A stretch of 64,000 nucleotides of DNA, from assembly GCA_024641005.1 (NCBI GenBank), contig JAHEDX010000013.1, positions 1 through 64,000 of the forward strand. Reading direction: 5' to 3'. Every line of letters begins with the position of its first letter. Within the stretch, counting starts at the first letter, position 1. Of the stretch, positions 807-31,874 are shown piece after piece. The DNA comes from Acidimicrobiaceae bacterium (GTDB lineage: Bacteria > Actinomycetota > Acidimicrobiia > Acidimicrobiales > Ilumatobacteraceae). The translations under genes were made by a program, and so were the position numbers. The notes under the pieces are model-generated. The model had not been told where the DNA came from. It did no database searches and saw only the letters and a program-made list of their open reading frames with translations.

Positions 807-2105
807 GTGGCATCCCGCTCGATCGTGTGGTTTCGGCGCGACCTGCGCCTCGTCGACCATCCGGCCTTGGCCGCCGCGTGCGCGGAGGGCGAGGTGCTGC
901 CCTTGTACGTGTTCGATCCGGCATTCGCTCGGGCCGGCGCCCCCAGGAGGGCGCTCCTGCACGATTGCCTTGCCGCCCTCCACACCGCCACTGGCGGTGC
1001 TCTCGTCGTACGTCATGGCGATCCGGCGGATGAGGTGCCCGCGATCGCCGAGGAGGTCGGGGCCACGACCGTGTTCGTGTCGAAGGATTTCGGTCCGTAC
1101 GGCCGACGGCGTGACGAGCAGGTGGCAGATCTGCTTCGTGGTGCGGGGCGCACGCTGCGCGGCGTCGGCTCGCCCTACGCGGTCGACCCGGGTGTCGTGA
1201 CCAAGGACGACGGCCAGCCGTATGCCGTCTTCACTCCGTTCTCGCGTCGATGGCGCGCCCACGGGTGGCGCGCTCCGATCGACGCACCGGCGTCGCCGAA
1301 CTGGATCTCGGCGGTCTCGGATGGCCTGCCGGTGCGGCCGGACACCGACGTCGACGTCCCGTCGTCCGCCGAAGCCGATGTCACCGCTCGCTGGCGACAG
1401 TTCCGGGATCACGCCCTCGACGAGTATGCAGGCCGGCGCGATCTTCCGGCAGTCCCGGGCACGAGCAGGTTGTCGCCCGACCTCAAGTACGGGTTGATAC
1501 ATCCGCGCCAGTTGTTGGCCGAGTCTGACCCTCGAGTAGAGGATCATGCCGTCTTCCAGTCAGAGTTGGCTTGGCGCGACTTCTACGCCGACGTGTTGTT
1601 CCGGCACCCCAGGTCGGCCTGGGAGAACCTGAACACCAAGTTCGACTTCATCCATCTCGACACGGGCAGGCACGCCGAGGAGAAGTTCCGCCGGTGGTGC
1701 GCCGGAACGACGGGTTTCCCGATCGTCGACGCCGGGATGCGACAACTGGTCGCCACCGGCTGGATGCACAACCGGGTACGGATGATCGTGGCCAGTTTCC
1801 TCGTGAAGGATCTGCATCTTCCCTGGCAGTGGGGAGCCCGTTTCTTCCTGCAACATCTGCTCGACGGCGATGTCGCTTCGAACAACCAGGGTTGGCAGTG
1901 GGCGGCAGGGACGGGTACGGATGCCGCTCCGTACTTCCGGGTGTTCAATCCGACCGCCCAACAGCAGCGTTGGGATCCCGAGGGGGAATACGTGCACCGC
2001 TGGATCCCCGAGCTCGACACGGCCGGGTACCCGAAGCCGATGGTCGACCACAAGATCGAGCGGCAGGAAGCCCTCGATCGGTATCAGGCGATCCGGCGAA
2101 TGTGA
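807..2105 (+). CDS. phrB: Deoxyribodipyrimidine photolyase
   Basis: A 432-residue class I photolyase that repairs UV-induced cyclobutane pyrimidine dimers with light energy through FAD. The start RSIVWFRRDLRL is the family's N-terminal Rossmann strand (antenna domain, about residues 1-130). The C-terminal FAD-binding half carries TGFPIVDAGMRQL, WMHNRVRM, NNQGWQWAAGTGTD and APYFRVFNP, the motifs that bind FAD and the lesion. Length is normal for a bacterial enzyme (about 430-470). It stands alone, converging on the cupin gene. A cryptochrome-like role is possible, but the complete motif set favours repair. Confidence 0.93.
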   Translation: MASRSIVWFRRDLRLVDHPALAAACAEGEVLPLYVFDPAFARAGAPRRALLHDCLAALHTATGGALVVRHGDPADEVPAIAEEVGATTVFVSKDFGPYGRRRDEQVADLLRGAGRTLRGVGSPYAVDPGVVTKDDGQPYAVFTPFSRRWRAHGWRAPIDAPASPNWISAVSDGLPVRPDTDVDVPSSAEADVTARWRQFRDHALDEYAGRRDLPAVPGTSRLSPDLKYGLIHPRQLLAESDPRVEDHAVFQSELAWRDFYADVLFRHPRSAWENLNTKFDFIHLDTGRHAEEKFRRWCAGTTGFPIVDAGMRQLVATGWMHNRVRMIVASFLVKDLHLPWQWGARFFLQHLLDGDVASNNQGWQWAAGTGTDAAPYFRVFNPTAQQQRWDPEGEYVHRWIPELDTAGYPKPMVDHKIERQEALDRYQAIRRM

Positions 2106-2139
2106 CGTCGCCGCCCGGCCGATGCTCCCGTCGGGTGTT

Positions 2140-2199
2140 GAACCGACGCAAAGTCGATTCGGGACCGACGGTGGTTCTGGGCGGGCTTTGCGTCGGTTC
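2140..2199 (+). repeat. Intergenic GACGCAAAG element, copy 1
   Basis: Two perfect 14-base arms face each other: GAACCGACGCAAAG at 2140-2153 and its reverse complement at 2186-2199, separated by 32 bases. The inner stretch CCGACGGTGGTTCTGG is shared with copy 2. The element lies between the convergent photolyase and cupin genes, where a bidirectional terminator would be expected, although there is no T-run. A mobile-element remnant is the main alternative. Confidence 0.75.
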
Positions 2200-2239
2200 G
2201 AGACCCGACCTTGCCTGGGGGCCCAGTCCGGTGCTGCAG

Positions 2240-2291
2240 CGACGCAAAGTCGATTGGTGTCCGACGGTGGTTCTGGACGGGCTTTGCGTCG
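2240..2291 (+). repeat. Intergenic GACGCAAAG element, copy 2
   Basis: A second copy of the element, about 95 bp downstream of copy 1 and in the same orientation. Its arms are CGACGCAAAG (2240-2249) and CTTTGCGTCG (2282-2291). Copies 1 and 2 have the same arm-to-arm length and match at all but a handful of positions, including most of the loop, so they look like one duplicated unit rather than chance hairpins. The loop conservation argues that more than base-pairing is being kept. Confidence 0.75.
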
Positions 2292-2327
2292 ATTCGAGGC
2301 CCGCGGACGCGGTCGCGGTCGGCCTGA

Positions 2328-2732
2328 TCAGCGGGGGCGGTGTTCGGTGCCGAGACCGGCCGTGATGAACAGCGCCGTCACCGGGGCATGCACGTCTGCC
2401 GTGTGCCAGGTGCCGGGCTCGTTGACGATGTATTCGCCGGCCGGGATAGTGACCGTCACGTTGGTGCCGTCGACCTTTTCCTGGTGCAACGTGATCTCGC
2501 CCGTCGTACACAGCACGACCTCGCTGCCCGACGGATGCATCTCCCAGACGTCCCACGACTCGGTGAACGTGTGCATGGTCACCAAACGGGCGTCGACGCC
2601 GTCGGACGAGTGGCGAGCGACATAGTCGCCGTACCAGCTCATCTCGCCGGTGAACAATGGTTCGGTCTCCGCGGTCGCTCCGAGCCCGAGGTGAATCGGG
2701 TGCTTGCTGATCTCCATCGAGCCCGTGTTCAT
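2328..2732 (-). CDS. Cupin-domain protein
   Basis: A 134-residue single-domain cupin. The core shows the two cupin motifs in order: a WDVWEMHPSGSEVVLCTTGEI stretch (about residues 60-80) and a second around IPAGEYIVNEPGTWHTAD. Histidines in both would bind a metal in the small beta-barrel. Such stand-alone cupins may be enzymes, sugar-binding proteins or sensors; the sequence does not decide. It converges on the photolyase gene and is divergent from the P450 gene, with about 60 bases between the two starts. Confidence 0.82.
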   Translation of the reverse strand: MNTGSMEISKHPIHLGLGATAETEPLFTGEMSWYGDYVARHSSDGVDARLVTMHTFTESWDVWEMHPSGSEVVLCTTGEITLHQEKVDGTNVTVTIPAGEYIVNEPGTWHTADVHAPVTALFITAGLGTEHRPR

Positions 2733-2739
2733 GGCGACC

Positions 2740-2745
2740 AGTATG
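2740..2745 (-). promoter_or_regulatory. Predicted -10 box, cupin gene
   Basis: On the minus strand CATACT ends 7 nt before the ATG at 2732. It faces the P450 promoter in the same short divergent region. Confidence 0.42.
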
Positions 2746-2778
2746 GCCCACGCCTCAGGGCGGTCTGACCGTTAGCGA

Positions 2779-2784
2779 TACGGT
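2779..2784 (+). promoter_or_regulatory. Predicted -10 box, P450 gene
   Basis: TACGGT ends 7 nt before the ATG at 2792. Confidence 0.42.
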
Positions 2785-2791
2785 CTCACGC

Positions 2792-3958
2792 ATGGGGATT
2801 CCGGAACTCGACATCGATCTGTGGTCGGACGACGTGCTCGCGGACCCCTATCCCACGTACGCCCGACTCCGCGAACTGGGAGCCGTGCTGTATTCGCCTC
2901 GATGGGATGCGTACATCGTTCCTCGCTACGACGAGGTGCGCCGCGTGCTCCAGGACTGGGAAACGTTCAGCTCGGCCCAAGGGGTGGGCCTCAACGATCG
3001 CGCCAACGGCATGGCCGGGCGTGGCATCCTCACCACCGACCCGCCGCTGCACGACACGCGTCGCCGCGTGCTGAATACGCAGCTCGTGCCGCGTGAGGTC
3101 GCGCGCCATCACGAGTTCCTGGCAGACGAGGCCGTTCGACTCGTCACGATGCTGGTCGACCGTGGCTCGTTCGACGCCGTGGCCGACCTCGCACACCCGT
3201 ACAGCGTGCAGGTCGTGTCCGATCTGTGCGGCCTGCCGATCGAGGGTCGTGAACACCTGATCCACCGTGCCTCGGCGGCCTTCGACACGTTCGGACCCGA
3301 CAACGATCGTTGTCGCGGCGCATGGGAGGGGTTTCGCGAGTTGTACGACTACGCCACCTACTTCGCCACGCCCGAGCGGCTGACCCCCGGGCGTTGGGGT
3401 GCTGAGATCTACGAGGCCGCAGTGGACGGTGTGGTCGAACCCGATGCCTGCCCCGGACTGGTGCTCGCGTACGTGTGGGCCGGCATGGACACCACCGTCA
3501 ACGCGATCTCCGCGGCGGTGTCGTTGTTCGCGGACCATCCCGACCAGTGGGCGATGTTGCGTTCGGATCGTTCGTTGATGACGAGTGCCGTCAACGAGGT
3601 ATTGCGGATCCAGCCACCGGTGCAGCGCTTCACCCGAAGCGTCACACGCGAGGTCAGGCTGGCCGCCGAGGTGTTGCCCGAGGGTGCTCGAGTCGCGGTG
3701 TTGTTCGGCTCGGCCAACCGCGACGAACGGCGATTCGTCGAACCCGATCGCTTCGACATCACACGCAATCCCACCGACCACCTCAGTTTCGGTCGTGGCG
3801 TGCACCGTTGCGTCGGGGCGGGGCTCGCTCAGGAGGAGATGAAGGCGGTGTTGGACGCGTTGGCCGATCGAGTCGAGCGGTTCGACGCGGTCGACCGGTC
3901 ATGGCGCTGCAACAACGCTCTGCACGGCCTCGAGCAGCTCACGGTGTCGGTGGCCTGA
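2792..3958 (+). CDS. Cytochrome P450
   Basis: A 388-residue soluble bacterial P450, typical in length. The oxygen-activating I-helix motif AGMDTT is at residues 230-235, the ExxR pair at E269/R272 (EVLR), and the haem loop FGRGVHRCVGAG puts the axial thiolate at C340. These residues are all intact, so it should be an active monooxygenase needing an external ferredoxin and reductase. No ferredoxin gene is adjacent, and the nearest ferredoxin-reductase-like protein is PaaE. Substrate is unknown. Just after the stop codon there is a separate promoter for the VOC gene, so the two need not form one unit. Confidence 0.93.
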   Translation: MGIPELDIDLWSDDVLADPYPTYARLRELGAVLYSPRWDAYIVPRYDEVRRVLQDWETFSSAQGVGLNDRANGMAGRGILTTDPPLHDTRRRVLNTQLVPREVARHHEFLADEAVRLVTMLVDRGSFDAVADLAHPYSVQVVSDLCGLPIEGREHLIHRASAAFDTFGPDNDRCRGAWEGFRELYDYATYFATPERLTPGRWGAEIYEAAVDGVVEPDACPGLVLAYVWAGMDTTVNAISAAVSLFADHPDQWAMLRSDRSLMTSAVNEVLRIQPPVQRFTRSVTREVRLAAEVLPEGARVAVLFGSANRDERRFVEPDRFDITRNPTDHLSFGRGVHRCVGAGLAQEEMKAVLDALADRVERFDAVDRSWRCNNALHGLEQLTVSVA

Positions 3959-3959
3959 C

Positions 3960-3965
3960 TACCGT
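3960..3965 (+). promoter_or_regulatory. Predicted -10 box, VOC gene
   Basis: TACCGT starts two bases after the P450 stop codon and ends 6 nt (cgtgcc) before the ATG at 3972. Confidence 0.5.
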
Positions 3966-3971
3966 CGTGCC

Positions 3972-4340
3972 ATGAGCGAGCCGTCCCGCAACCTGGCGAT
4001 CGTCATCGACGCTGCTGATCCCGACCGACTGCGCGATTTCTGGGTGGCAGCGATGCGCTACGAGCCGTATGGCAGCGCCGGTGCGTACCGTTCTGCGGCG
4101 CCGAGTCAGGGCTCGATCGGGCCGAAGCTGGTGTTCCAGCAGGTCGACGATCCCCGAACGGGCACGAAGAACCGGCTGCACATCGACATCATCGTCGGTG
4201 ACGAGATCGAACACGAGGCCGAGCGACTGGAAGCTCTCGGCGCCCGTCGCCTGACCGGCTTGATCGTCGAGGTCGGAACATCGTGGATCGTCATGGCCGA
4301 CCCCGAGGGCAACGAGTTCTGCCTGGTCTACGACACCTGA
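3972..4340 (+). CDS. VOC (glyoxalase/bleomycin-resistance) superfamily protein
   Basis: A 122-residue protein with the vicinal-oxygen-chelate fold pattern. The N-terminal strand NLAIVIDAADPDRLRDFW is the usual opening of glyoxalase-like proteins. A central RLHIDIIVG strand supplies a candidate metal-binding His, and the end VMADPEGNEFCLVYDT is the family's C-terminal signature. VOC proteins include isomerases, dioxygenases and drug-binding proteins, and nothing here picks one. It lies 13 bases after the P450 gene and converges on paaE across a copy of the intergenic repeat. Confidence 0.82.
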   Translation: MSEPSRNLAIVIDAADPDRLRDFWVAAMRYEPYGSAGAYRSAAPSQGSIGPKLVFQQVDDPRTGTKNRLHIDIIVGDEIEHEAERLEALGARRLTGLIVEVGTSWIVMADPEGNEFCLVYDT

Positions 4341-4430
4341 CGTGTCCACGTTCGCTACTCGTCAGAGGTGAGCAGCGCTGGTCAGGCGAGTGGCCTCGTC
4401 GGTGAGCACGCTCAATCCCGGTTCGTGAAT

Positions 4431-4482
4431 CGACGCAAAGCCGTCTGGCGACCACCGGTGTTCGTGAGTCGACTTTGCGTCG
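4431..4482 (-). repeat. Intergenic GACGCAAAG element, copy 3 (inverted)
   Basis: A third copy between the convergent VOC and paaE genes. Arms are CGACGCAAAG (4431-4440) and CTTTGCGTCG (4473-4482). Read on the minus strand, its loop begins TCGACTC and contains GGTGGT, aligning with the loops of copies 1 and 2. It is therefore the same element in the opposite orientation. The rest of the 168-base gap shows no gene. Confidence 0.7.
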
Positions 4483-4508
4483 GTTCGTAACCCGGTCGAA
4501 CGGGGCGG

Positions 4509-5573
4509 TCAGGCGTCGTAGTCGACGTCGATGGTGGGCGTCGTCGGATGCGACTGGCACGTCAGCACGTAGCCGCGCGCGACCTCGTCGTCGCTGAGTC
4601 CGTAGTTGACCGCCATCTCGACCCCGCCGTCGCGCATCACCGCCTGGCACGTCGAACACACGCCGCTGCGACACGAGAACGGCGCGTCGGGACGCACGCG
4701 CTGCACCGCGTCGAGCACGCTGTCACCCTCATACAGGTCGAACTGGGTGACCCGCCCGTGCAAGGTTGCTCGGCCGGTGGCAACGGTGACCGATGTCTCG
4801 GTGACCGCTTGCGGTGCCAGGCTCACGCGGCCCGGCTGGTTCGTGGTGAAGATCTCGCGATGCACTGCTGCTGCGGGCAGCCCCGCTGCCACGAGGGCAC
4901 GCTCGGCGTCGGCAATCAGCTCGAGTGGTCCACACAGGAATGCATGGTCCGAGTCGGCGGGCAGGAAACCGGCCTCGATCAGCCGGTCGAGCTGTGTGCG
5001 GTCGGGTCGGCCCGAGAGCAAGGCCCCGCCGGACTCCTCCCGAGTGAACGCATAGGCGATGCTCAAACGACCGAGGTGGCGGTCGCGGAGATCTTGCAGC
5101 TCATCGAGCAGCATGGTCGATTGGGACGTGCGGTTCAGGTAGTACAACGACACCAGGGCACGAGGTTCGACGGCGAGGACCGTCGCCGCGATCGAGAAGA
5201 TCGGGGTGATACCACTGCCCGCGGCCAGCAGCGTGTAGGTGCGAGTGCTGCTCGTTTCGAGGGAGTGGGTGAAGTGACCGGCCGGCGGTAGGACGTCGAG
5301 CAGGTCGCCCGGTCGGAGCTGTTCGGTTGCCCAGGTCGAGAACACGCCACCGTCGACGTGCTTGATGGCGACGCGCAGGCGGCCGTCGGGAGCCGCAGAG
5401 CAGATCGAGTAGCTGCGGCGCACCTCGATACCGTCGAACTCGCGACGTACCGTGAGGTGTTGACCGTGGGCGAACGGGAGATCGTCGTCGAACGAGACGA
5501 TCACGCTGTCGTCGGTGTCGCGTTCGACCGCCGAGACGACGAGCGTGGTGAATCCGTCGGATGAGGAGGTCAT
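4509..5573 (-). CDS. paaE: Phenylacetyl-CoA epoxidase reductase subunit PaaE
   Basis: A 354-residue reductase that passes electrons from NAD(P)H through FAD and a 2Fe-2S centre to the PaaABC epoxidase. Residues 1-100 form the FAD domain (RSYS at 53-56), 110-240 the NAD domain (AAGSGITPI at 117-125, CGP at 214-216), and 265-354 a plant-type ferredoxin domain with C301, C306, C309 and C339. Last gene of the five-gene paa operon. Its ATG shares one base with the paaD stop (TGATG), implying re-initiation by terminating ribosomes. The domain order FAD-NAD-FeS is that of PaaE. Confidence 0.95.
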   Translation of the reverse strand: MTSSSDGFTTLVVSAVERDTDDSVIVSFDDDLPFAHGQHLTVRREFDGIEVRRSYSICSAAPDGRLRVAIKHVDGGVFSTWATEQLRPGDLLDVLPPAGHFTHSLETSSTRTYTLLAAGSGITPIFSIAATVLAVEPRALVSLYYLNRTSQSTMLLDELQDLRDRHLGRLSIAYAFTREESGGALLSGRPDRTQLDRLIEAGFLPADSDHAFLCGPLELIADAERALVAAGLPAAAVHREIFTTNQPGRVSLAPQAVTETSVTVATGRATLHGRVTQFDLYEGDSVLDAVQRVRPDAPFSCRSGVCSTCQAVMRDGGVEMAVNYGLSDDEVARGYVLTCQSHPTTPTIDVDYDA

Positions 5574-6049
5574 CACAGCGCCTTGAAGAATTCGAATGGT
5601 TCGGAACACGCGTTGCACACGTAGGTCGCCTTGCAGGCAGTCCCCCCGAAGTGTGAGATCAGACGTGTTCGACGCGAGTTGCAGCGGGGGCATGCGACCG
5701 GTGGGTCGACGAATGTGACCCCTGGTTCGCTCGCCGGTGGCGGGGGCGCGATGCCCGCCGAACGCAACCGTTCGTGACCTCGTTCGGTGATCCAATCGGT
5801 GGTCCAGGCCGGGCTCATGACGAGGCGTACGTCGGGTTCGAAGCCGGCGGACCGTACCGCGACTTCGACATCGTCGCGGATCTGTTCGGTCGCCGGGCAG
5901 CCGGTGTAGGTCGGGGTCAGCAGCACGGTCGCGGTACCCGCTTCGATCGTGACCGAGCGGACGATGCCGAGATCGCCGATCGTGACGTGGGGTAGTTCAG
6001 GGTCCTCGATGTCGCGGACGAGTTCGTCGAGCGACTCCGCGACGGCCAT
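5573..6049 (-). CDS. paaD: Phenylacetate pathway assembly protein PaaD
   Basis: A 158-residue PaaD. The N-terminal two thirds is a MIP18/DUF59 domain (IEDPELPHVTIGDLGIVR, then TPTYTGCPA with C51). The C-terminal third is a cysteine cluster (CPRC at 120-123, then C139, C145, C148) expected to bind a metal or Fe-S centre. PaaD is required for a working epoxidase complex, probably by helping metal-centre assembly, but is not part of the purified catalytic complex. The start is set by TGATG overlap with paaC and by homology; a GTG two codons earlier is possible. Confidence 0.93.
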   Translation of the reverse strand: MAVAESLDELVRDIEDPELPHVTIGDLGIVRSVTIEAGTATVLLTPTYTGCPATEQIRDDVEVAVRSAGFEPDVRLVMSPAWTTDWITERGHERLRSAGIAPPPPASEPGVTFVDPPVACPRCNSRRTRLISHFGGTACKATYVCNACSEPFEFFKAL

Positions 6050-8120: not shown

Positions 8121-8867
8121 TCAGAACGTGGACGTGATCAAGCGCCGGAAGATGTCGGCATCGTGCCCGGGGACGATGGCGGTGCCGCTCGACCGCTCGC
8201 GTCGCAGCATGTCGAGTGAGGCGCGCTGCTGGTCGAAGTCGAAACCGAACGGCGGCAGAACATCATCGTCGAGCGTGTGCCCGAAGTAGCAGGCGTCGGC
8301 GGCCAAGATCACCGGCCCTCCGGCGGTGAGGACCCGCAGCGACTGGTGACCGCAGGTGTGCCCGGGCGTCGGCACGCAGGTCACCGTGCCGTCGTCGAAC
8401 AGGTCGTGTGGGCCGTCGATCGCGATCACGTCGTGCCCGAGGTCGCACAACGAGCGTTCGTAGCCGCCGGCGGCGAGCATCGCGTTCCACTCGCCGCTTT
8501 GAACGATCACGCGAGCGTTCGGGAGCTCACAGAGTCCGCCGGAGTGATCGAAGTGACAGTGCGACAGCACCACCGTGAGCTTGCCCAGAGGGTCGACGTC
8601 GTGATGCGCGAGCCGATGACCGACGGTGCCGCCATGGTCGAGTTCGGGCGTGAACAGCTTCGACATCCGCCCGAGAGATTCGGGTCCGTCGGCCAGGTCG
8701 GGATGCAGCCCGACATCGAACACCACGGTTCCGTTCGGGTGTCGTACCAGCCAGGCCGGGACCGGCAGGCTGAACTCGTCGGTCGATCCGCCTTGCGAGA
8801 GCGTGCGTTGCTGAGTTCTCAGCCAGCCGCAATCGAGAGCGGTGATCGTTGGCGCACCGGACGACAT
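8121..8867 (-). CDS. Metallo-beta-lactamase-fold hydrolase, lactonase-like
   Basis: A 248-residue MBL-fold enzyme with the full zinc-binding set: HCHFDH at residues 103-108, H170 in PTPGH, D191 in AADACYFGH and H235 in IVPGHDAD. The layout and length resemble N-acyl-homoserine-lactonase-type MBL proteins (AttM/AiiA clade), which open lactone rings, but the same subfamily contains other esterases and lactonases. A quorum-quenching role is only a possibility. It is divergent from the acyl-CoA synthetase gene, 48 bases apart. Confidence 0.83.
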
Positions 8868-8903
8868 CGACTGTGGTCTATCAGAATCCGACCGTCGACC
8901 TGC

Positions 8904-8909
8904 GACGAT
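8904..8909 (+). promoter_or_regulatory. Predicted -10 box, acyl-CoA synthetase gene
   Basis: GACGAT ends 6 nt (ggggag) before the ATG at 8916. Confidence 0.45.
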
Positions 8910-8915
8910 GGGGAG

Positions 8916-10319
8916 ATGACTCTGCTCCCTGCGCTCCACGGCGTTCACGGCGATCCCTCCGGCGCGGTGTCGGTCGCCGGCGAGACCTTGTCGTGGTCCG
9001 AGTTGGCGGGAAAGGCCGACGCAGTCGGCGCATGCGTTGGCGGTGCTGCGGCCATCGCCGTGTGCGGTGCGGCGTCGATCGAGACGGTCGTCGCCGTGGT
9101 GGCCGGGCTGCGCTGGGGGGTTCCGGTCGTGCCGGTGCCCGCCGATGCCGGCCCGATGGAGCGCGAGCACATTCTCCGCGACTCGGGGGCGGACATGGTG
9201 ATCGGTGATCCCGACTGGCCGGAGGTCGAACTCGAGCGTGTTCTCGTTCCCGCACGGGCGGGGTCACCGACGGGCGGGTCCGACGTCGGCGACAGCGACC
9301 CCGCCCTGATCATGTACACCTCAGGCACCACCGGGCTTCCGAAGGGCGCTGTCATCCCGCGGCGTGCTGTGGCCGCCGGGCTCGATGGCCTCGCGGACGC
9401 CTGGGGTTGGACACCGGACGACACGCTGGTGCACGGCCTGCCCTTGTTCCACGTGCACGGTCTGATCCTCGGGGTGCTCGGAGCGCTCCGCGTCGGTTCG
9501 AAGCTGGTGCACACGGGCAGACCCACGCCCGATCGGTACGCAGCGGCGGGCGGCACCTTGTACTTCGGCGTGCCCACCGTCTGGAGTCGGCTGGTCGCGG
9601 CTCCTGAACAGGCGAGGGCGCTCTCGTCGGCACGCCTACTCGTTTCGGGCAGCGCCGCCCTGCCGGTGCCCGTGTTCGATCGGATCCGCGAGTTGACCGG
9701 TCAGGCGCCGGTCGAGCGGTACGGCATGACCGAGACACTCATCACGTTGTCGACCCGTCACGACGGTGAGCGTCGGCCCGGCCACGTGGGTGTTCCGATC
9801 GCCGGCGTCGAGACGCGTCTGAGATCCGATGCCGGTGATCTGTTGCGACACGACGGGGAGACCATCGGTGGGCTCGAAGTGCGGGGCGCCACGATGTTCG
9901 ACGGTTATCTCAATCTGCCCGACAAGACGGCCGAGTCGATGACCGACGACGGCTGGTTCGTGACCGGTGACGCCGTGACGATCGGGCCCGATGGCTTCCA
10001 TCGCATCGTCGGGCGGGCCTCGATCGACATCATCAAGTCGGGCGGTTACAAGGTGGGTGCCGGCGAGGTCGAAACGGCGCTCTTGTCTCACCCGTCGGTC
10101 GAGGAAGTGGCGGTGATCGGGGTACCGGACGATGACCTCGGCGAGCGGATCGTCGCGTTCGTCGTCGGCGATCGCGTCGCGCCGCAGGAACTGATCGATC
10201 ACGTCGCTGCCCTGCTCTCGGTTCACAAGCGGCCACGCGAGATCCGTCTCGTCGAGAGCCTGCCCCGCAACGCGATGGGCAAGGTGCAGAAGCAGCAGCT
10301 GAGAGGGACCGATCGATAG
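8916..10319 (+). CDS. Acyl-CoA synthetase (ANL superfamily), malonyl-CoA synthetase-like
   Basis: A 467-residue adenylate-forming ligase that joins an organic acid to CoA using ATP. The P-loop [11 protein letters not shown] is near residues 134-144, YGMTET follows in the middle, DGWFVTGD and RASIDIIKSGGYKVG mark the hinge, and NAMGKVQK near the end carries the catalytic Lys. The short length and the GGYKVGAGEVE segment recall MatB-type malonyl/methylmalonyl-CoA synthetases, though the substrate cannot be assigned with certainty. The start is set by the promoter spacing and sits just after the divergent hydrolase gene. Confidence 0.88.
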   Translation: MTLLPALHGVHGDPSGAVSVAGETLSWSELAGKADAVGACVGGAAAIAVCGAASIETVVAVVAGLRWGVPVVPVPADAGPMEREHILRDSGADMVIGDPDWPEVELERVLVPARAGSPTGGSDVGDSDPALIMYTSGTTGLPKGAVIPRRAVAAGLDGLADAWGWTPDDTLVHGLPLFHVHGLILGVLGALRVGSKLVHTGRPTPDRYAAAGGTLYFGVPTVWSRLVAAPEQARALSSARLLVSGSAALPVPVFDRIRELTGQAPVERYGMTETLITLSTRHDGERRPGHVGVPIAGVETRLRSDAGDLLRHDGETIGGLEVRGATMFDGYLNLPDKTAESMTDDGWFVTGDAVTIGPDGFHRIVGRASIDIIKSGGYKVGAGEVETALLSHPSVEEVAVIGVPDDDLGERIVAFVVGDRVAPQELIDHVAALLSVHKRPREIRLVESLPRNAMGKVQKQQLRGTDR

Positions 10320-30140: not shown

Positions 30141-31874
30141 TCACAGCAGACGGGTTGCGTACGGCCACTGACGGTTGCGAACGGGCACGTCGCGCCGACG
30201 TTCGGTGGTGAGCCGGGCCGTCAGTATCGTGCGCGTCGCCGCAGTGCAGGGTTCGTCCCAGAGGTTGTGTCGCTCGACGGGGTCCGTCGTCAGGTCGTAC
30301 AGCTCCCATTCGTCGGGGAGCACGTGGGCGCGATGGGTCGGCCCATCTGGACCGGATGTTGCAAGATGGCGTACGCCCGGCTCGGTCCAGGTGTCGGGGT
30401 CGTCGAACGTTCTCACGAGCTTCCACAGGTGGCCGTCGACCGTGGTGACGAGCGCCTCGAGATTCGAGCCCACATTCGCCGGGACGGCGATCAACATGTC
30501 GTCGGGAGGTTCTGCTCCCAGCCCGAAGCCCCGGGCGACGGCGGATGCGCCGGTGTCACCTTCCATGATGTTGTCGCGCGTCATCAGGTAGACGCTGCGG
30601 TTCGTGTCGGCGGGTTCGCCGTCGACGAAGCGCATCAGGTTGTGCCCGGGAAGCGGATGGAACTCGGTGAACCGCCCGGAGAGTGTCGCCCCGATCTCGT
30701 CGATGTCGATGTCCGCCGCAGCGAGCAGCGTCGGCACGATGTCGACATGGGAGGTCGGCATCTGCGAGATCATCTGCCCGTGCGTGGGCCGCTCGCCGAT
30801 TCGGACGATCGTGAAGGGCACCCTTGCGGCCTCGTCATAGAGCGTGAACCACTTCTGGTGGAGGCCTCCGTGAGACCCCAACAGTTCGCCGTGATCGGCG
30901 CTGCGCAGCAGCACGGCATCGGCTGAGCCGGCGTCGGTGACGGCCCGCCTCACCCGATCGATCGGATCGTCGACGTCGGCGTGGAGCCGGTAGTACAGGC
31001 GTCGATACTCGTCGGCGTTGGCCTCGTAGACACCGACGCCGAGTGGCGCGTAGCCCGTCGGGTACGAATCCCGATAGGCAGCCTGAGCGGAGGGCTTGTC
31101 GGCGAGGTCCTCGTCGGCCGTCGGCGCCGCCGGCACCGGCGGGGTGTCGTGCGGGTCGGGTGGGAGCGGGTTCCTGCGGGTCCACCCGGGGAACAGCACG
31201 ATGTCGTGGGGATTGACGAAGCTGACGACCAGCAGGAACGGCCGAAGGGCGTCGGCGTCGCCGGCCCGCCGCCCGTCATACCGTTGTTCGAGCCAGGCGA
31301 TCGCCCGGTCGGCGTACAGCCCGTCGCGACGGGTTCCGCTGTCCGCGAGCTTGCCCCCGTGAGGTTCGGGTCCCACCCATCCCGAGAAACCGAACTGGTC
31401 GAGCGGGTCGGCGTCCAGATAGGCCTGCACCGCCACTGGGTCCGGCTCGCCGGCGTCGTCGTTCGTGGCGAGCGACGCTCCGGTCACGGGATCGACGAGA
31501 TCGGCGTGGGTGAGGTGCCATTTACCCTCGTAACGGGTGTCGTACCCGGCAGCACGGAACCAGTGACCCAGGGTGGGCACCTCACCTTGGCGCAACCAAC
31601 GCATCGCCGTGTCGTCGGCGTCCTTGCCGAGCCCGTCGGTCTGGGTGACCCCGTGCACGTCCGGAAACTGCCCGGTGAAGATGGTCGGTCGACTGGGCAC
31701 GCAAGCGAGCGAGCCTGTGTAGTGCCGGTCGAAGGTGACTCCGTGTTCGTCGAACCAGCGACGCCCCGGCAACGCTGTGCTTCGCCATCGGCGAATTTCG
31801 TCGTTTTCGTAGGGAGGAGCTGCTCGTTCCTGATCGGTCAGGATGACGATGATGTCGGGTCGAGCGGCACTCAA
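30141..31874 (-). CDS. Sulfatase family protein (formylglycine-dependent)
   Basis: A 577-residue sulfatase/alkaline-phosphatase-superfamily hydrolase. The CxPxR signature is at residues 58-62 (LACVPSRPTIFTG), where C58 would be matured to formylglycine; DIIVILTDQE near the start binds the metal and GKWHLTH carries the next active-site Lys/His pair. SADHGELLGSHG supplies a second metal-ligand Asp-His pair. No signal peptide, so it acts inside the cell unless exported with a partner. Its start overlaps the dienelactone-hydrolase-like gene by four bases, suggesting an operon that removes sulfate or a related ester group. Confidence 0.9.
   Translation of the reverse strand: MSAARPDIIVILTDQERAAPPYENDEIRRWRSTALPGRRWFDEHGVTFDRHYTGSLACVPSRPTIFTGQFPDVHGVTQTDGLGKDADDTAMRWLRQGEVPTLGHWFRAAGYDTRYEGKWHLTHADLVDPVTGASLATNDDAGEPDPVAVQAYLDADPLDQFGFSGWVGPEPHGGKLADSGTRRDGLYADRAIAWLEQRYDGRRAGDADALRPFLLVVSFVNPHDIVLFPGWTRRNPLPPDPHDTPPVPAAPTADEDLADKPSAQAAYRDSYPTGYAPLGVGVYEANADEYRRLYYRLHADVDDPIDRVRRAVTDAGSADAVLLRSADHGELLGSHGGLHQKWFTLYDEAARVPFTIVRIGERPTHGQMISQMPTSHVDIVPTLLAAADIDIDEIGATLSGRFTEFHPLPGHNLMRFVDGEPADTNRSVYLMTRDNIMEGDTGASAVARGFGLGAEPPDDMLIAVPANVGSNLEALVTTVDGHLWKLVRTFDDPDTWTEPGVRHLATSGPDGPTHRAHVLPDEWELYDLTTDPVERHNLWDEPCTAATRTILTARLTTERRRDVPVRNRQWPYATRLL

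Follow-up and report, generated by a model that had tools for sequence, protein, structure and literature searches.

The palindromic repeat present in three copies in the stretch of DNA analysed here (64,000 nucleotides, hereafter the window) is a discrete intergenic element of 72 bp, and elsewhere in the same genome doublets of this element bracket a gene predicted to code for a nuclease. Sequence comparison demonstrated a repeat family with discrete ends and intergenic siting, the bracketing of the nuclease gene, the recurrence of this arrangement across the class and the co-divergence of repeats and nucleases. The explanation that we favour, and hold to be fairly probable, is that these elements are REPIN-like non-autonomous palindromes and have a solo AbiEi-like/Vsr-like (EDxHD) endonuclease, not a RAYT, as their dedicated partner.

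Exact arms, GACGCAAAG-N32-CTTTGCGTC, were found in the window at 2145-2194, 2241-2290 and 4432-4481, whereas none were expected (100 shuffles of the window). The first two copies form a tandem doublet, copy 2 being located 96 bp downstream (Table 1). The three positions, the inversion of the third copy and the location of both sites between convergent gene ends were those of the initial annotation and were all confirmed, the last by gene calls; the unit itself proved larger than annotated, its information content being bounded at 72-74 bp. Considered as 72-bp units, copies 1, 2 and 3 displayed identities of 63/72, 52/72 and 47/72, respectively, against 36-38/72 for the next-best stretch of the window. 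A Pfam search with the small gene at the right of copies 1 and 2 returned zero matches. At 31659-31703, the window also matched the Rfam family Ms_AS-5, a Mycobacterium sRNA, above the gathering score.

Table 1. Location of the element copies and of neighbouring genes (window positions unless a contig is given)
Feature	Position	Strand	Remarks
DNA photolyase gene	807-2105	+	left neighbour of copies 1 and 2; ordinary host gene, outside the element
Element copy 1	2134-2205	+	palindromic units 2134-2166 and 2173-2205; linker 2167-2172; exact arms 2145-2153 / 2186-2194
Element copy 2	2230-2301	+	palindromic units 2230-2262 and 2269-2301; exact arms 2241-2249 / 2282-2290
Small cupin-like gene (by reading)	2328-2732	-	right neighbour of copies 1 and 2, outside the element
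Glyoxalase-like (VOC) gene	3972-4340	+	left neighbour of copy 3, outside the element
Element copy 3, inverted	4421-4492	-	palindromic units 4460-4492 and 4421-4453; exact arms 4432-4440 / 4473-4481
PaaE-like ferredoxin reductase gene	4509-5576	-	right neighbour of copy 3, outside the element
Solo nuclease gene	G000:C159, about 8156-9102	-	outside the window
Element doublets bracketing the nuclease gene	G000:C159, 8036-8205 and 9183-9352		

The element is composed of two mutually inverted 33-bp palindromes, each with a 5-base loop (GCAAA and TTTGC), separated by a 6-bp linker. Its consensus reads GGTnCtGAAnCGAC-GCAAA-GTCGATTcgCGACC, followed by the linker AnCGGT and by GGTyCCGAATCGAC-TTTGC-GTCGnTTCgnGACC. 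Information content was high across 72-74 columns and fell to background level beyond both edges, a sharp drop which indicates a discrete unit, and the conservation beyond the arms reported at first, loop included, was upheld. The core GACGCAAAG...CTTTGCGTC was mostly 50 bp long and measured 51 bp in a few diverged copies whose linker reads GGGT; an alternative loop, GGAGA/TCTCC, was also encountered in diverged copies. At some sites, three or four units followed one another at intervals of about 40 bp, or tandem doublets were present with a spacing of 91-112 bp. Neither a conserved target nor any conserved neighbouring sequence was found beside the copies. The features of a MITE derived from a DDE insertion sequence were not observed: no target-site duplication was detected at the element edges (p=0.35), and a scan of genes flanking the copies recovered no transposase.

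Searching the whole source genome (G000; 4.14 Mb, 175 contigs) with a profile of the extended element yielded about 38 units, distributed over 28 sites and 19 contigs. Twelve copies had exact arms, every one of them spanning exactly 50 bp where the pattern permitted 38-68, and the arm GACGCAAAGNCG occurred 43 times against 2 for its reversed control. According to a gene caller based on codon usage, for which the window served as training set, with two edge cases assigned by hand, all 28 sites were intergenic, two of them overlapping the extreme end of a gene; 10 were convergent, 14 tandem, 3 divergent and 1 undetermined. Convergent sites accounted for 10 of the 27 classified, versus 17.7% expected from the gap types in nine stretches of the genome (p=0.014). 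The preference for convergent gene ends is modest at the genome scale: the siting first described holds for both window sites and as a mild overall excess, but not as a strict rule. The reading of the repeat as a REP/MITE-like unit was supported by its copy number, fixed geometry and intergenic location. Being a short palindrome dispersed between genes, it is REP/REPIN-like in the broad sense, and the inverted doublet of 33-bp palindromes with its 6-bp linker and constant spacing is that of a REPIN. No named family had been recognised initially, and an Rfam search with the element likewise gave no match.

Family-wide, 200 genomes were searched, and element matches were restricted to G000, G009, G005 and G034, those of the last two resembling the repeats that flank the nucleases of these genomes. 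The photolyase-paaE locus of seven congeners was devoid of the element, and G000 and G009 had one element in common, located upstream of an FAA-hydrolase gene. From the small number of genomes with matches, the empty locus of the congeners and this shared copy, it follows that the family was amplified in one lineage and partly inherited vertically. The exact pattern had ten matches in GTDB contigs, none belonging to the element family, and zero in the viral contigs searched. Most of these ten corresponded to a different palindrome with an 8-bp period (ACGCAAAG), from unrelated phyla; the repeat (ACGCAAAG)n was widespread, being present in Acidobacteria, Verrucomicrobia, Bacteroidota and others (L061, L062, L065-L068, L070). 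Two further arrangements were noticed. A tandem array of TGGTCCCGAATC, the outer arm of the element alone, lies beside an element copy in G009 (L092:4280-4360; G009:C37), and another palindromic family, made of inverted CCAGAAGGGGTCA / TGACCCCTTCTGG repeats, occurs just upstream of the photolyase gene of G003 (L121:201-299, reverse strand).

The genes adjoining the copies were ordinary metabolic genes with one exception, which encodes a 315-aa protein combining an AbiEi-like N-terminal region with an MTES_1575/DUF559 (Vsr/EDxHD-type) nuclease domain. Its last residues are encoded within the element itself, and its neighbours are genes for an aldehyde dehydrogenase (ALDH) and an FAA hydrolase. 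A second, more distant nuclease match was present in G000, and a plasmid tblastn with the nuclease returned zero matches. Matches to the AbiEi N-terminal part and to PF18741 were obtained for 12/12 solo nucleases of the genus. Over 40 loci, E200, D231, E242 and D258 were conserved in 40/40, H249 in 38/40 and D244 in 37/40. The nuclease profile matched 3hrl and 3r3p, the latter a mobile-intron endonuclease, and these E, D and H residues together with the family match place the protein in the EDxHD (Vsr-like) family.

The association of this gene type with repeats extended over the genus and the class. The genus set comprised all 12 solo MTES_1575 genes found, without the large fusion proteins L154 and L155, which displayed no comparable flank repeats. 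The best left-right flank repeat scored 17-54 in this set, with 11/12 nucleases at 24 or above versus 5/220 control genes (p=2e-14). A profile built from the 12 proteins (A5) retrieved the same architecture from 191 of 395 genomes and 110 of 183 genera of the class. Among 28 further class loci, picked by nuclease score only, 22 had a flank-repeat score of at least 25 (p=6e-22 against 231 pooled controls) and 6 were without a clear flank repeat; 11 other genes within the same class loci scored at most 19. The flank repeats were mostly hairpins of 35-56 bp, such as TTCATTGCACCGTGAGTTGCGCTGAGCGAAAGCCACGGTGCAATGAA, which is found on either side of the gene in locus L195.

Repeat types followed nuclease clades. 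The genus contained three nuclease clades and three kinds of repeats, those of clade I varying among members. The clade II palindrome, TGCG-N-CGCA-N5-YTCAYGCRTT, was matched 27 times in G002, 45 in G003, 29 in G006, 17 in G007 and 21 in G009, these five being precisely the congeners in which a clade II nuclease is present. Elsewhere, it had no match in G000, G001 and G008, the last of which has one weaker member of the nuclease family, and 3-4 matches in G004 and G005, where a clade II nuclease was not detected; the reversed control had none in any genome. Within each genome, the dispersed copies were of a variant similar to that found at the nuclease gene of this genome. Among the 40 loci, the nucleases were at least 41% identical in 17/17 locus pairs with similar flanks, and similar flanks were found in 0/686 pairs with nucleases less than 40% identical; the observed mean was reached by none of 5000 permutations of repeat versus nuclease similarity. 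Part of this co-divergence may reflect vertical descent of the same locus, for instance in L166 and L167, which appear to have neighbours in common.

A dedicated partnership between repeat and enzyme could operate as follows. The AbiEi-like N-terminal part probably binds the palindrome, because AbiEi proteins are autoregulators which bind to inverted repeats in their own promoters (PMC7319586). The nuclease domain would nick or cut the palindrome, perhaps in the form of a hairpin extruded during replication; cleavage at or near it is suggested by the kinship to 3r3p and by the conservation of the E, D and H residues. Repair of the break would then copy or capture the element and spread it between genes, the routes from cut to new copies being either excision of the hairpin followed by its capture or repair from another copy. 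Intergenic copies would be tolerated by selection, and any effect on transcript ends would be a by-product.

The same nuclease might instead be the product of a homing-type selfish gene which cuts pre-existing palindromes and is copied into them, the repeats themselves not being spread. The profile match to a mobile-intron endonuclease agrees with such behavior, as does the place in G009 corresponding to the nuclease of G000, where a single element is found instead of a nuclease gene between doublets. However, the ALDH gene is also missing there, so that the site cannot count as a clean empty one; none was found for the nuclease unit, and a search of 1.6 Mb of the nuclease-poor G008 gave no orthologous flanks. 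Homing alone also leaves the clade-specific amplification of repeats within the same genome unexplained, and we regard this account as unlikely.

Autoregulation by AbiEi proteins through inverted repeats (PMC7319586), along with the AbiEi N-terminal match in all 12 genus nucleases, could point to a regulator, the flanking copies being its operators and the dispersed ones a regulon or decoys. The repeats nevertheless occur both 5' and 3' of the nuclease gene, divergent gene pairs occur at only 3 of the 27 dispersed sites and the conserved nuclease residues would have no explanation, which makes a regulatory function of this kind appear quite doubtful.

The copies had also been proposed to be bidirectional terminators, which would be of fixed sequence and maintained by selection at gene ends. 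At least one gene 3' end adjoins 24 of the 27 classified sites, convergent ends are in mild excess and copy 1 has a folding energy of -60.7 kcal/mol (z -9.3); copy 2, however, folds no better than its shuffles. The copies had no U-tract or other terminator-like site, no G+C-rich hairpin followed by a T-run being found at any of them. The long hairpin had fewer paired cells and less covariation than column shuffles (500/500 as high), the two local hairpins slightly better covariation (12/500). With neither a U-tract nor covariation of the long hairpin, a dedicated terminator function is unlikely. Some copies, moreover, lie upstream of genes, one of the three divergent sites is common to G000 and G009, the same locus exists in congeners without the element, and the doublets around the nuclease would remain unaccounted for. 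Termination was not sustained as the main role, and selection of the copies for it is very unlikely.

Mobilisation of the elements by the RAYT-like Y1 transposase of the genome, as in a classical REPIN-RAYT system, was rejected as highly improbable: the element has the architecture of REPINs (PMC3116915) and one Y1_Tnp gene exceeded the cut-off in G000 (G000:C75:3391-3720), but this sole detected Y1 gene is bracketed by another 33-bp palindrome, AGTTACGAAACGTGCC-N-GGCACGTTTCGTAACT, with about 36 copies of its own, no element copy was found around it, analogous palindromes of that type accompany the two Y1 genes of G009, and six congeners possess Y1 genes with at most one element-like match. 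Two enzyme types in one genome, each with its own palindromes, can serve as an internal comparison. The AGTTACGAAACGTGCC-N-GGCACGTTTCGTAACT copies were concentrated in a few contigs (G000:C138, C169, C115, C103, C75; L148-L153, L088) and most of those examined start within a few bases of a stop codon; the family appears to be RAYT-associated and sited at gene ends. Near the Y1 gene of G005, a perfect 74-bp palindrome with 37-nt arms and no loop was observed (L095:3258-3331).

As REPIN-like palindromes with a putative nuclease partner, the elements share with REPIN-RAYT systems (PMC3116915) the inverted doublets of short palindromes, their extragenic, clustered, dispersed and non-autonomous nature, and the presence of a single enzyme gene that has its own type of repeat at its flanks. 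They differ in the enzyme, here an AbiEi-like/Vsr-like EDxHD nuclease and not an HUH tyrosine transposase, and in the occurrence of RAYT-type genes with other palindromes in the same genomes. Like the GTAG and CGTC REP superfamilies (PMC3733652), they involve palindromes of 20-40 bp with short loops, often in dimers of opposite orientation and mostly downstream of genes, but the unit is of the GGT...ACC form and, by inspection, lacks the terminal unpaired GTAG/CGTC tag. CGTC REPs were reported without a dedicated transposase (PMC3733652), a gap of the kind that the nuclease may fill here. EDxHD/Vsr-like homing endonucleases such as 3r3p belong to the same nuclease family by profile and have the same conserved E/D/H residues, whereas the present proteins carry a fused AbiEi-like DNA-binding part, are not intron-borne and are linked to dispersed palindromes. 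Finally, AbiE type IV toxin-antitoxin systems have in common the AbiEi-like N-terminal part and, for AbiEi, binding to inverted repeats (PMC7319586); such a system was rejected here, the protein having a C-terminal nuclease instead of an antitoxin domain alone and no AbiEii toxin gene being adjacent in G000.

The recurrence of the palindrome-nuclease-palindrome arrangement across the class suggests a repeat-plus-enzyme system without earlier description. No link of DUF559/MTES_1575 or AbiEi nucleases to palindromic repeats was found in open-licence PubMed Central papers, and this novelty is provisional. REP repeats are among the commonest repeats of bacteria, and RAYT is, to our knowledge, the only enzyme so far tied to them. 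Rather tentatively, AbiEi-like/EDxHD nucleases might represent a second, RAYT-independent class of enzymes creating and maintaining REPIN-like populations, with a palindrome of their own in each lineage and widespread in the class, and they could perhaps also be the partner that other orphan REP families lack. If this is true, a co-diverging nuclease partner, present in about half of the 395 sampled genomes of the class, would constitute a second way to make REP-type repeats, and the DUF559/MTES_1575 genes with an AbiEi-like domain, an orphan family that is very common, would gain a role.
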